Positions 33,571-44,104 of a stretch of DNA of 64,000 nucleotides are shown piece after piece (positions within the stretch are counted from its first letter, which is position 1; every line of letters begins with the position of its first letter). Location of the stretch: the NCBI GenBank assembly GCA_026195255.1, contig JAPHSS010000008.1:1-64000 (forward strand), in the 5' to 3' direction. Below the pieces are notes generated by a model. That model searched no databases, was not told the origin of the DNA, and worked only from the letters and a program-made list of their open reading frames with translations. The position numbers were made by a program, and so were the translations under genes. This stretch comes from Gammaproteobacteria bacterium (GTDB taxonomy: Bacteria; Pseudomonadota; Gammaproteobacteria; SZUA-229).

Positions 33571-33948
33571 TTAGTTTACGATTTTCCACTGTGATTCTGT
33601 CAGACAAAAATTAAAATAAGTAACGCCCGATTGTTGCCTGGAATGATTTTTAAATTTTAGACGCTTACATGGATGTTTATTATTTTTATATTGTTTAATA
33701 ACCGTGATTTGGCCTCCATTATTAGTTTCTTTATTACTCCAGTTATGGGTATCACCAGGTTTATTATTGCTCAATACCTTCTGATACTCTTTCTGTAGTA
33801 GCTCTATATCAGCTTGAGTAAAATCGGTAATTACTGCATATTTCATAAACCCCATATTTGCAGCATTTATTCTTGCTGAAAATAAAAGAACAACACACAT
33901 AAGAGATAATAGTAATAGTCGTTTTTTATATACGGTTTTCATTTTCAT
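33571..33948 (-). CDS. small secreted protein, RT0821/Lpp0805 surface-antigen-like
   Basis: A 125-residue protein with a signal peptide (LLLLSLMCVVLLFSARINAA). The mature part ends in a pattern of the 17-kDa surface antigen type: HNWSNKETNNGGQITVIKQYK, then PCKRLKF, FNFC and SQWKI, with a Cys pair probably forming a disulfide. The glycine-zipper N-terminal region of longer members is absent. Function unknown; envelope location inferred. Confidence 0.6.
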   Translation of the reverse strand: MKMKTVYKKRLLLLSLMCVVLLFSARINAANMGFMKYAVITDFTQADIELLQKEYQKVLSNNKPGDTHNWSNKETNNGGQITVIKQYKNNKHPCKRLKFKNHSRQQSGVTYFNFCLTESQWKIVN

Positions 33949-34068: not shown

Positions 34069-35859
34069 ATGAATAACACCACTCAAATCAACACTAAACT
34101 CGATATAAGCATTCAGTCAGGCCGCCCCTCAAGTGAGATCCAGCTGAGCCCAGAAGCTCAGCGAGATGTACATCAGGCGTACCTGGTTACTATGCGACAG
34201 CGTTTCAAAACTGAAATTAATCGACTTACACGTGGTGACATGTCTGATTTACTTGCCGCTCATAAAGCAGATTACGACAACCTTAGTTTTCTCATGACCT
34301 ACATTTATGCCTGGAGCTGGTTACAACAGAATATTCACAATTTATATCAGGAGGAAGTTCTAGCGGCTTTTGCAAATGGCCCGCAAGCTTTTTTAATGGA
34401 TTTGATATTAAAAAGCAATACAAGCAGCGAATTTATTGATTCATATATTAGTTACTGGCAGAACTACCAGGGCGAACCTCAATTGCAACAACAACAAATG
34501 CTGATACTGTTACAACAGTCTCCCGATAAAGAGAGTTTAATCAGCTCTATTGAAGCGACCTGGAATAAACTTCATCTATTTAACAAGAGTTTTGCAATCG
34601 GTTACAAAGATTTAGCGAAAAAAGAAAAAGACAGATACGCCGATATGCTGGCAGATGAAGACAGGGAAAGATTGAAACTTGTCGACGAATTACCCGACAC
34701 ACCTTCGTTAAAACTTTTTAATAAACTTGGCATTATTCCAGCAATGGGCTGCCCACAAACCTGCCGTCATTGCATGTTTATTTTTCGCCCATTGATGAAA
34801 AACACGCAAGACCCTGACCAGGTATTTCAGATAATAAACAAACTAACAACCTCTGTGTTATTTACCGGCGGTGATCTGACCAAACATCTTGATCATTTTT
34901 ACAACGCCATATCAAGCATGCAGCACGTTACCACTTTCGCTATTTTGCTAAACGGTGACTTTGCCGATAGTCGAGAAGTAACTGAAACTATTATGCAAAA
35001 TATGGCCACTGCTATTCGCCGTCGTCACATTACATGGCCAAAAGCTAAAGTTAATTTACAAATCAGCTTTGATGAGTTTCATCAGGAAGTTGTAGTTGAT
35101 CGTAAGGGCAATCTAAAAGAACGTATACCGGTAGTTAAAATTGCCAATATTGTTGAAGCCGCTCCGAGATTTGCCGATGAAATTCAGCTTTGCTTATGTC
35201 ACAAGCAAAGTCACTTAAATTTTTCTATGGATGTATTTAAAAAAGGTGTATTTGCCCGTTTAACCAAAGAACTGGGACGACGTGGGCATCAGATACAAAT
35301 TCTGGCCGCTGGCCCTTCAACACGTTTAAAGCGTAATCCGCATAACCCAGAAACACCAGCACAGGTTATAAAAGATGCGACTTTTGTTTTAAGTAAATAC
35401 CCATCAGTCCCCTTAATGCTAACCAGCTCAACCATTGATGCCTATGGTCGTGCTGAAATGATGGAGTTACACGAGTCTGTCAATGAACGTGATTTATTAA
35501 AACAAATGTTAGATGGAAAGGGAACCGGTGCAGAAACTTTTGATAATGATTTAATGTTCTGGTTTAACGGTTGGGCGACTTTATTTTCAGCAGTGCATAT
35601 ATCTCTGGGTAATATTTTTGAAGATGGTATTGATGTTATCAGACAACGTCAGGCAAAAGATCCTTTAAGTAACGCCATGTTTCGATTTGATATTCGCTTA
35701 CTGGATTATTACCGCGAGAAACGTGATGACCTGGATTCAATTATTGAAAAATCAACCGGACCTCATCACTTATTTCACACTATTACTGAAGAGGGTGCCA
35801 TGCGTTTACATATGACTAAACGCCTTCTGGAATCTGCAAATACACATCAAGCCATTTAA
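34069..35859 (+). CDS. uncharacterised radical-SAM-like protein
   Basis: A 596-residue protein. C228, C232 and C235 form CPQTCRHC, the Cx3Cx2C cluster motif of radical SAM enzymes, in the context AMGCPQTCRHCMF. About 30 residues on, VLFTGGDLTKH fits the GGE-type SAM-binding segment. The first 200 residues are helical and unlike known partners; the C-terminal 200 residues contain FDNDLMFWFNGWATLFSAVHISLGN. Two further Cys (LCLC) lie between. I know no named family for it. It stands alone, so its substrate cannot be inferred from context. Confidence 0.72.
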   Translation: MNNTTQINTKLDISIQSGRPSSEIQLSPEAQRDVHQAYLVTMRQRFKTEINRLTRGDMSDLLAAHKADYDNLSFLMTYIYAWSWLQQNIHNLYQEEVLAAFANGPQAFLMDLILKSNTSSEFIDSYISYWQNYQGEPQLQQQQMLILLQQSPDKESLISSIEATWNKLHLFNKSFAIGYKDLAKKEKDRYADMLADEDRERLKLVDELPDTPSLKLFNKLGIIPAMGCPQTCRHCMFIFRPLMKNTQDPDQVFQIINKLTTSVLFTGGDLTKHLDHFYNAISSMQHVTTFAILLNGDFADSREVTETIMQNMATAIRRRHITWPKAKVNLQISFDEFHQEVVVDRKGNLKERIPVVKIANIVEAAPRFADEIQLCLCHKQSHLNFSMDVFKKGVFARLTKELGRRGHQIQILAAGPSTRLKRNPHNPETPAQVIKDATFVLSKYPSVPLMLTSSTIDAYGRAEMMELHESVNERDLLKQMLDGKGTGAETFDNDLMFWFNGWATLFSAVHISLGNIFEDGIDVIRQRQAKDPLSNAMFRFDIRLLDYYREKRDDLDSIIEKSTGPHHLFHTITEEGAMRLHMTKRLLESANTHQAI

Positions 35860-42599: not shown

Positions 42600-42661
42600 T
42601 TTGCTTGTTATTTCAACTAAGATTCATCCAGGGAAGTAGTATTTTTACAAGAGAGAAATTT

Positions 42662-43108
42662 ATGCCACAACAAGCACAGACACTACCAGACGCCGAAATT
42701 GCTGACCTTGCGCGAGCTAGCGCAACTGAGCTAGGACGTTTGTTGAGCGCAATTCCCAAGGCTGACCGTGCACAAGTCAAGCTAGATGGTCACGATCTAA
42801 TATTGCCTCGCCAGGCTCTTACCTTGCTAAGAGACTTGCTAACTGAAATGGCTCAAGGGAACGCTGTTTCCGTTGTACCAACACATGCCGAAATGACGAC
42901 TCAAGAAGCAGCTAACATTCTCAATGTTTCTAGACCACACCTTATTAAGCTACTTGAAGAAGAAGTAATTCCATTCACATTGACCGGCACTCATAGACGC
43001 ATTCGATACCAAGAATTAATGGAATACAAGAAACAACGTGATGAAGAATGCAGCTCTGCTTTGGATGAATTGACAACTCAAGCACAAGAATATGACATGG
43101 GCTATTAA
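42662..43108 (+). CDS. helix-turn-helix antitoxin
   Basis: A 148-residue DNA-binding protein. Residues about 78-130 form an excisionase/MerR-like helix-turn-helix (TTQEAANILNVSRPHLIKLLE ... HRRIRYQELMEYK) preceded by a region LDGHDLILPRQALTLLRDLL. Such proteins pair with PIN toxins in type II systems and repress their own promoter. ATG 42662 has GAGAGA 7 nt upstream. The stop overlaps the PIN gene start by 1 bp (TAATG), so expression is coupled. Confidence 0.85.
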   Translation: MPQQAQTLPDAEIADLARASATELGRLLSAIPKADRAQVKLDGHDLILPRQALTLLRDLLTEMAQGNAVSVVPTHAEMTTQEAANILNVSRPHLIKLLEEEVIPFTLTGTHRRIRYQELMEYKKQRDEECSSALDELTTQAQEYDMGY

Positions 43109-43671
43109 TGGGCTTTGTCGTAGTACTTGATGCCTGCGTTCTTTACCCTGCACCTTTAAGAGACTTATTGCTACGATTGGCAACGACAGGGCTGTTTGCT
43201 GCTAAATGGACAGATGAGATCCATGATGAATGGATGCGTAATTTAATAAAAAACCGCCCTGAAATTAAAGAACAAATAAAGCGCACCAAAGTCTTAATGA
43301 ATAAGGCCATACCCGATTGCCTTGTCACAAATTATGAAAGCCTAGTATGTGGACTCACTTTACCAGATGAGGATGATAGGCATGTGTTAGCAGCTGCTAT
43401 TAAATCTAACGCACAAATTATAGTTACTTTTAACCTTAAAGATTTCCCTAAAGAAGCTCTTAATAACTACGATATTGAAGCAATGCACCCAGATGTGTTT
43501 ATAGAGCATCAATTAGGTTTACACCAGGGACTCATAATAAGTGCGATTAAAAAGCATCGTGCATCATTAAAAAAACCACATAAAACAGCGGAAGACTACC
43601 TTGATACTCTTTCCGCTCAGGGACTTGTTGTAACTGCGGATTTATTGCGTGAATTTATAGATCTAATTTAA
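43108..43671 (+). CDS. PIN-domain toxin
   Basis: A 187-residue PIN nuclease. Acidic residues of the active site are visible: D8 in VVLDACVLYP, then the Glu in WTDEIHDEW, Asp in LPDEDDRHVLAAA and the VTFNLKDFP segment. PIN toxins cleave tRNA or other RNA. It is the downstream gene of a tightly coupled pair with the HTH antitoxin. The C-terminal about 60 residues extend past the core. The pair sits between tRNA-derived repeats. Confidence 0.86.
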   Translation: MGFVVVLDACVLYPAPLRDLLLRLATTGLFAAKWTDEIHDEWMRNLIKNRPEIKEQIKRTKVLMNKAIPDCLVTNYESLVCGLTLPDEDDRHVLAAAIKSNAQIIVTFNLKDFPKEALNNYDIEAMHPDVFIEHQLGLHQGLIISAIKKHRASLKKPHKTAEDYLDTLSAQGLVVTADLLREFIDLI

Positions 43672-43850: not shown

Positions 43851-44044
43851 GTGGTGGCAGAACCTGGACTAAATTTGCACGGAGCAAATTTGGACAGGGA
43901 GCGTTGTTTGCTCCCTGGGCCGAAGGCCGAAGCACATGGATGTGCTGAGCAACTGAATCAGGGCCTGGTTCAATTCGGCTCGACTCTTTTAAACTTTCAG
44001 TGGATTTAATCTAGATAGATGGAAAAAGTGGTGGCCGAACCTGG
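43851..44044. repeat. right copy of the tRNA-Phe-linked repeat, with hairpin string
   Basis: Starts with a one-mismatch copy of the 17-bp tRNA end (43851-43867), then a run of short dyads: CTAAATTTGC/GCAAATTTGG, AGGGAGC/GCTCCCT, GGCC/GGCC, AGCACA/TGTGCT and GAATCA/TGGTTC, and then the block shared with the left copy. It runs into the tRNA-Phe gene itself. No open frame of note; any coding reading of it is doubtful. Confidence 0.82.
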
Positions 44045-44104
44045 AATTGAACCAGGGACACGCGGATTTTCAATCCGCTGCTCTACCGACTGAGCTATTC
44101 GGCC
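44029..44104 (-). tRNA. tRNA-Phe (GAA)
   Basis: A full cloverleaf of 76 nt on the minus strand: acceptor GGCCGAA pairing with TTCGGCC, D-arm GCTC/GAGC, anticodon stem CGGAT/ATCCG around TTGAAAA with anticodon GAA, T-arm CCTGG/CCAGG with TTCAATT, and an encoded 3' CCA at 44029-44031. The 3' end is duplicated twice in the neighbouring accessory DNA. Confidence 0.97.

Follow-up and report, generated by a model that had tools for sequence, protein, structure and literature searches.

An unnamed radical SAM family with a predicted EpeE-like fold and its gammaproteobacterial branch

Radical SAM enzymes cleave SAM and take hydrogen from their substrates. In the SPASM/twitch enzymes, such as anSME, SkfB and ChlB, C-terminal cysteines hold auxiliary clusters. 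The arsenosugar radical SAM enzyme ArsS (TIGR04167) is, like part of the family described here, encoded beside a TIGR04283 glycosyltransferase, as observed in the genome studied; it is a different protein and coexists with the family as a separate gene. The closest structural relative of the family is EpeE (YydG; TIGR04078; PDB 8ai1-8ai6), a radical SAM peptide epimerase which is reported to contain two clusters and to give back the hydrogen from Cys223 (PMC8326336).

The protein analysed in this study shares with EpeE the barrel, the motifs CxxxCxxC, GG(D/E) and SxDExH and, in the predicted model, the overall topology of the C-terminal part. It differs from EpeE in that its family has neither conserved auxiliary-cluster cysteines nor a cysteine donor, and carries about 200 additional, helical residues at the N-terminus; a YydF-type precursor was not noticed. 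The barrels of the SPASM/twitch enzymes anSME, SkfB and ChlB align with the model as well (Z 9.1 to 10.1), and so does part of the C-terminal region of anSME and ChlB, but their auxiliary-cluster cysteines have no conserved counterpart in the family.

The gene and its assignment to the radical SAM superfamily

The window, the whole stretch of 64,000 nucleotides that was analysed, encodes on its plus strand (34069..35859) a radical SAM protein of 596 amino acids plus stop codon. The ORF starts from ATG and has relatives in other genomes; gene calling relied on a simple ORF script, so that start positions are predicted. The genome contains one copy of the gene. Upstream there are, each above an NCBIfam cut-off, genes for NudE, for CysQ and, on the minus strand, for a GMP/IMP nucleotidase, as well as an ORF of 125 amino acids on the other strand. 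An ORF of 128 amino acids, also on the other strand, follows downstream. The nearest co-directional gene is CysQ, which ends 805 bases upstream. The original prediction that the gene has no operon partners thus holds in the window, but not outside the Gammaproteobacteria, where a TIGR04283-type glycosyltransferase regularly accompanies it (see below). The 125-aa ORF (33571-33948, minus strand) has a signal-like start, is a neighbour of the gene at 4 of the 32 gammaproteobacterial loci and yielded nothing at E ≤ 1e-10 in an NCBIfam search. Elsewhere in the window, two adjoining ORFs (42605-43671) resemble by eye a DNA-binding protein of the excisionase type and a toxin with a PIN domain, possibly a toxin-antitoxin pair, and a tRNA on the minus strand (44032-44104) was the sole Rfam match at the gathering score.

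Two alignments were used. A1 comprised 23 rows, the window protein and 22 of 31 gammaproteobacterial loci, after exclusion of near-copies, fragments and rows with stops. A2 comprised 33 rows, 14 gammaproteobacterial and 19 from another class (out of 22; L100, L106 and L117 were excluded as broken or badly started). The CPQTCRHC and GGD segments named in the original prediction of a radical SAM enzyme are present at residues 228-235 (34750..34773) and 267-269 (34867..34875). The former is the [4Fe-4S]/SAM motif of the CxxxCxxC type and holds the only cysteines (C228, C232 and C235) common to all 33 members of A2. GGD is the counterpart of the glycine-rich SAM-binding motif GGE; both glycines (G267, G268) are kept in 33 of 33 members, and GGE replaces GGD in five of these (L099, L110, L111, L119 and L120). 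Invariant residues were also found in SFDEFHQE (residues 333-340; 35065..35088), namely S333, D335, H338 and Q339, and in YGRA (residues 459-462; 35443..35454), namely G460 and R461. Alignments and a profile search paired SFDEFHQE with SxDExH of EpeE. The stretch FDNDLMFWFNGWATLFSAVHISLGNI (residues 491-516; 35539..35616) has no conserved cysteine within.

In the HMM searches, the window protein reached 22.9 bits with PF04055, below the Pfam gathering score of 29.5, although 19 of the 33 members matched this family at E ≤ 0.01 (best 8e-7). The radical SAM assignment rests on the motifs and the fold: the invariant residues above and a partial barrel in the predicted model, which can be aligned with solved structures of many radical SAM enzymes and has low pLDDT at residues 225-246. 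TIGR04078 (EpeE) gave 22.4 bits against a cut-off of 300, followed by HxsC with E 0.07, and was the sole NCBIfam family matched by A2 members at E ≤ 0.01 (15/33, best E 4.9e-7). None of the 33 members matched TIGR04167 (ArsS) at that threshold. As originally proposed, the protein thus belongs to the radical SAM enzymes, and no named family was accepted for it, since none reached its Pfam or NCBIfam cut-off. A literature search that had most subscription journals outside its reach found no paper on the family. The window gene represents the gammaproteobacterial branch of a family which neither Pfam nor NCBIfam names and which lies inside the known radical SAM superfamily.

Predicted fold and kinship to EpeE

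The model of the whole protein had a pLDDT of 79 and a pTM of 0.80, with low values at residues 1-19, 225-246 and 492-510. Structure prediction had been set as a check of the original claim, and the partial barrel is present in the model at about residues 215-455 (34711..35433), in line with a profile match, VIA and hhalign. EpeE (8ai6) was the sole PDB match in Foldseek at E ≤ 0.001 (1e-4) and ranked first in a profile search of the PDB (E 0.0023). The VIA comparison of EpeE with residues 210-594 of the model gave Z 18.6 and an rmsd of 3.6, with 288 of 322 residues aligned; viperin (10.6), anSME (10.1), SkfB (9.9) and MoaA (9.7) followed. With hhalign, six EpeE-like proteins from plasmid records gave 96.7 % over residues 218-392, a pairwise value.

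The C-terminal segment alone aligned weakly with the EpeE-like proteins (score 16.4, E 0.12); the maximum of 60 column shuffles was 14.8 and the reversed sequence scored 10.0. This alignment pairs VHISLGNIFEDG with the LG stretch after the CC pair of the EpeE-like proteins. Extending the register by reading, we would place NG-WATLFS of the window protein where EpeE-type enzymes have DGxIxxCC. The C-terminal part looks like an EpeE-type domain without its cluster cysteines. In the family just three cysteines are conserved, so that the second [4Fe-4S] cluster of EpeE has no counterpart, and neither has a donor of the Cys223 type: there is no fourth conserved cysteine, the next columns having cysteine in 13, 8 and 4 of 33 members. 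Without second cluster and cysteine donor, EpeE's own reaction is unlikely, and the kinship therefore says little on the reaction catalysed.

The N-terminal domain (residues 28-207; 34150..34689) is all-helical, with nine helices in the model, which agrees with the helical part foreseen at the outset. Modelled alone it reached a pLDDT of 85. None of 23 members had a Pfam match with E below 0.04, the best value being 0.045, the best Foldseek hit had E 0.93, and the best VIA match, with Z 5.4 over 106 residues, was not convincing either, which is not proof of a new fold. The mean share of the commonest residue in A2 was 0.44 in this domain, compared with 0.62 for the barrel and 0.60 for the C-terminal domain. 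The original prediction had stated that neither terminal part matches anything known. This stands for the N-terminal part in the searches run; for the C-terminal part it does not, given the alignment with EpeE. With a structural relative at VIA Z 18.6, the proposal of a wholly new enzyme class is not sustained. Alignments and models together show a protein with one predicted [4Fe-4S]-binding motif, an EpeE-like barrel with an apparently cluster-free C-terminal domain, and a helical N-terminus specific to the family.

Relatives and gene neighbourhoods in two classes

A relatives search in 58 genomes found the gene in 16, including the genome of the window and one fragment. Patterns from the window's own protein recovered 31 loci encoding relatives from genome_contigs, with titles naming Gammaproteobacteria or taxa inside this class, e.g. 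Sedimenticola, Thiolapillus, Chromatiales and Thiotrichales, hosts which we take to be sulphur oxidisers. In a class sample 12 of 369 genomes matched, one weakly with 19 bits (G158) and one with a fragment at a contig end (G214), and in a phylum sample 34 of 398, of which 33 lie outside the window's class. Homologues are not confined to the Gammaproteobacteria; one or more further classes of the phylum, probably the Magnetococcia, presumably magnetotactic cocci, have them too. A viral or plasmid gene was rejected on searches of viral contigs and plasmids: six stretches of viral contigs fitted the pattern and none encoded a relative, and plasmids contained no relative of the protein at E ≤ 1. 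The 31 loci, the invariant residues and a dN of about 0.12 against two relatives likewise ruled out a chance ORF or pseudogene; dS could not be computed (-1), a value read as saturation. In a tree of 33 rows the 14 gammaproteobacterial rows lie on one side of a branch with 100/100 support, and they are joined at 94/90 by two rows of the other class, which belong to family f205 and both have the glycosyltransferase. The root was placed at the midpoint, and the direction of transfer discussed below is inferred.

Near-copies, such as L017 with 96 % identity, occur among the 32 neighbourhoods from Gammaproteobacteria, which are not independent of one another. These neighbourhoods have no general partner: CysQ and a HAD nucleotidase occur in 12, GalE-cluster proteins in 7 (and in 2 of 22 other-class loci) and flavocytochrome c sulphide dehydrogenase in 4. 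PhnP, a phosphoribosyl phosphodiesterase, was found in one case among the annotated neighbours, where its gene (L031:2170-2931; TIGR03307, 358.9 bits) shares 4 bases with the end of the radical SAM gene. A small co-directional ORF of 60 amino acids or more (MLPKFLYEILPYMYL...), by eye resembling a membrane protein, lies downstream in 3 of 32 loci (L025, L091 and L098). No relative of the other-class glycosyltransferase was found near the gene in any of the 32 neighbourhoods of 5.4-22 kb (tblastn, E ≤ 1e-4); in L044, a family-2 enzyme of another kind with a low score (50.7 bits vs 182) is encoded two genes from it, and the glycosyltransferase of G406 (L107) had no close match in the 58 relatives (best 80 bits). 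TIGR04283 matches above the cut-off occurred in 15 of 16 of these genomes with the gene and in 23 of 42 without it, which inside the home family became 14/15 vs 16/22 (p 0.20). The glycosyltransferase was rejected as gammaproteobacterial partner on this value and its absence near the gene.

In the other class, 22 of 33 neighbourhoods were examined and a TIGR04283-type glycosyltransferase was near the gene in 18. In 13 of 17 of these loci (L117 left out) it is the immediate upstream neighbour in the same orientation; there is a broken frame in one, and in three, L120 included, a chemotaxis-receptor-like gene stands in between. The 13 start-to-end distances, counted from the first possible start, are -3, -3, -3, 0, -7, -9, -10, -28, -54, -72, -81, 43 and 106 bases, seven of them between -10 and 0. 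Seven of eight members tested were above the cut-off of TIGR04283, which NCBIfam names arsenosugar glycosyltransferase. Each of the 22 genomes had one TIGR04283 match of 174-218 bits (20 above the cut-off of 182; next best 76), encoded away from the gene in G427, G434, G471 and G526. As a synteny control, a divergently read FtsY (18/22) and a lytic transglycosylase (19/22), which have no likely link to the gene, were counted in the same neighbourhoods; L102 and L108 have kept both and lost the glycosyltransferase. Because FtsY and the transglycosylase are equally conserved, the persistence of the glycosyltransferase is by itself no proof of a partnership, and part of the pairing is plain synteny. 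Its co-direction and overlap nevertheless speak for more than that. A same-strand ORF of about 61 amino acids (SDLTRLKLNLLKGMPGVYNRL...) is found just downstream of the gene in 7 of 22 loci (L103, L104, L106 and L115-L118), and two members tested had no Pfam match.

Possible substrates and pathways

We tentatively prefer the view that a single-cluster radical SAM enzyme modifies a peptide or protein, and that in the other class the product may be glycosylated. The single cluster would cleave SAM, as in the superfamily generally, and the 5'-deoxyadenosyl radical would take hydrogen from a peptide or protein substrate bound between the helical and the cysteine-free C-terminal domains. The radical would then be resolved without auxiliary cluster or conserved cysteine donor. 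In the other class the adjacent TIGR04283-type enzyme might, with less certainty, glycosylate the product, and the gammaproteobacterial copies may stem from one transfer that left the glycosyltransferase neighbour behind. By analogy, the kinship to EpeE favours a peptide or protein substrate. Against this stands that the recurring small ORFs are not common to both groups. The survey of small ORFs, which would miss distant or fast-changing peptides, thus found no small precursor peptide shared by the family.

The glycosyltransferase neighbour makes sugar or lipid substrates possible too. A small-molecule substrate (sugar, nucleoside or sugar lipid), the radical-modified sugar of which the TIGR04283-type enzyme joins to something else, is a serious competitor that we regard as somewhat less probable. 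The steadiest co-directional neighbour is indeed a glycosyltransferase, PhnP overlaps one gammaproteobacterial copy, and DesII, BlsE and viperin, which act on sugars or nucleotides, are among the fold matches (Z 9.1 to 10.6), but these folds rank at least 8 Z units below EpeE. GalE-cluster proteins near the gene pass the GalE cut-off in four of six cases tested; those of the gammaproteobacterial loci are, however, on the opposite strand in six of seven, which looks like local synteny, and the two other-class relatives are below the cut-off.

A function in the arsenosugar or arsenolipid pathway, alongside ArsS or at a later step, appears improbable, despite the NCBIfam name of the neighbouring glycosyltransferase. 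In the phylum sample, ArsS (E ≤ 1e-60) was present in 34 of 34 genomes with the gene (33 above the cut-off), compared with 83 of the 364 that lack it, counts that take the gene and ArsS searches as drawing the same genomes and are confounded by kinship, since 33 of the 34 gene-bearing genomes are not of the window's class. The class sample, with the same assumption and likewise confounded by kinship, gave 9/11 vs 174/358 (G158 counted as without the gene), and two genomes of 94 and 98 % completeness (G198 and G307) have the gene without ArsS and TIGR04283. The genome of the window encodes ArsS, a fused TIGR04283-TIGR04282 glycosyltransferase and ArsM together, all above the NCBIfam cut-offs (L131:6959-10167; contig C70, about 130958-134166), at a distance of about 95 kb from the gene. 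Homologues of this ArsS, of ArsM or of the TIGR04282 part were, however, absent from the 22 other-class gene neighbourhoods. All 22 of these genomes contain ArsS (21 above the cut-off), but in 20 regions around it (L132-L151; 3.8-19.5 kb, some short) no ArsM homologue was found, and 19 of the 20 ArsS proteins are only 40-44 % identical to that of the window's genome. Low identity and lack of an ArsM homologue indicate that the other-class ArsS may have another role.

Least probable of these is a role in sulphide oxidation, e.g. through modification of flavocytochrome c sulphide dehydrogenase or of its cytochrome: the gene follows the cytochrome c and flavoprotein genes after 7 bases in L034, precedes both in L041 and has the flavoprotein just upstream in L032 and L033, but these are 4 of the 32 neighbourhoods from Gammaproteobacteria, L032 and L041 share one branch (97/95) with L035 and L037, which have no dehydrogenase, and L033 and L034 are outside the tree, while DsrA, present in the genome of the window, was above the cut-off in 13/16 genomes with the gene vs 20/42 without, yet showed no association inside the home family (12/15 vs 16/22, p 0.71), so that the gene was also rejected as a marker of sulphur oxidation.

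Returning to the preferred peptide- or protein-modifying enzyme, a bolder and rather doubtful extension is that the gene and the glycosyltransferase form an undescribed two-step pathway in which a radical modification is followed by glycosylation to a new product. The enzyme would have lost the auxiliary cluster of its epimerase kin and kept the domain, and the new helical domain would bind the substrate. The pairing can be likened to that of the arsenosugars, and mycofactocin offers a similar combination of radical SAM enzyme and glycosyltransferase. If the preferred reading is right, an EpeE-type domain emptied of its cluster would be a natural test of the purpose of auxiliary clusters, and sulphur-oxidising bacteria and, probably, magnetotactic cocci would contain an unknown modified product. 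The glycosyltransferase neighbour would be a concrete place to seek its substrate.
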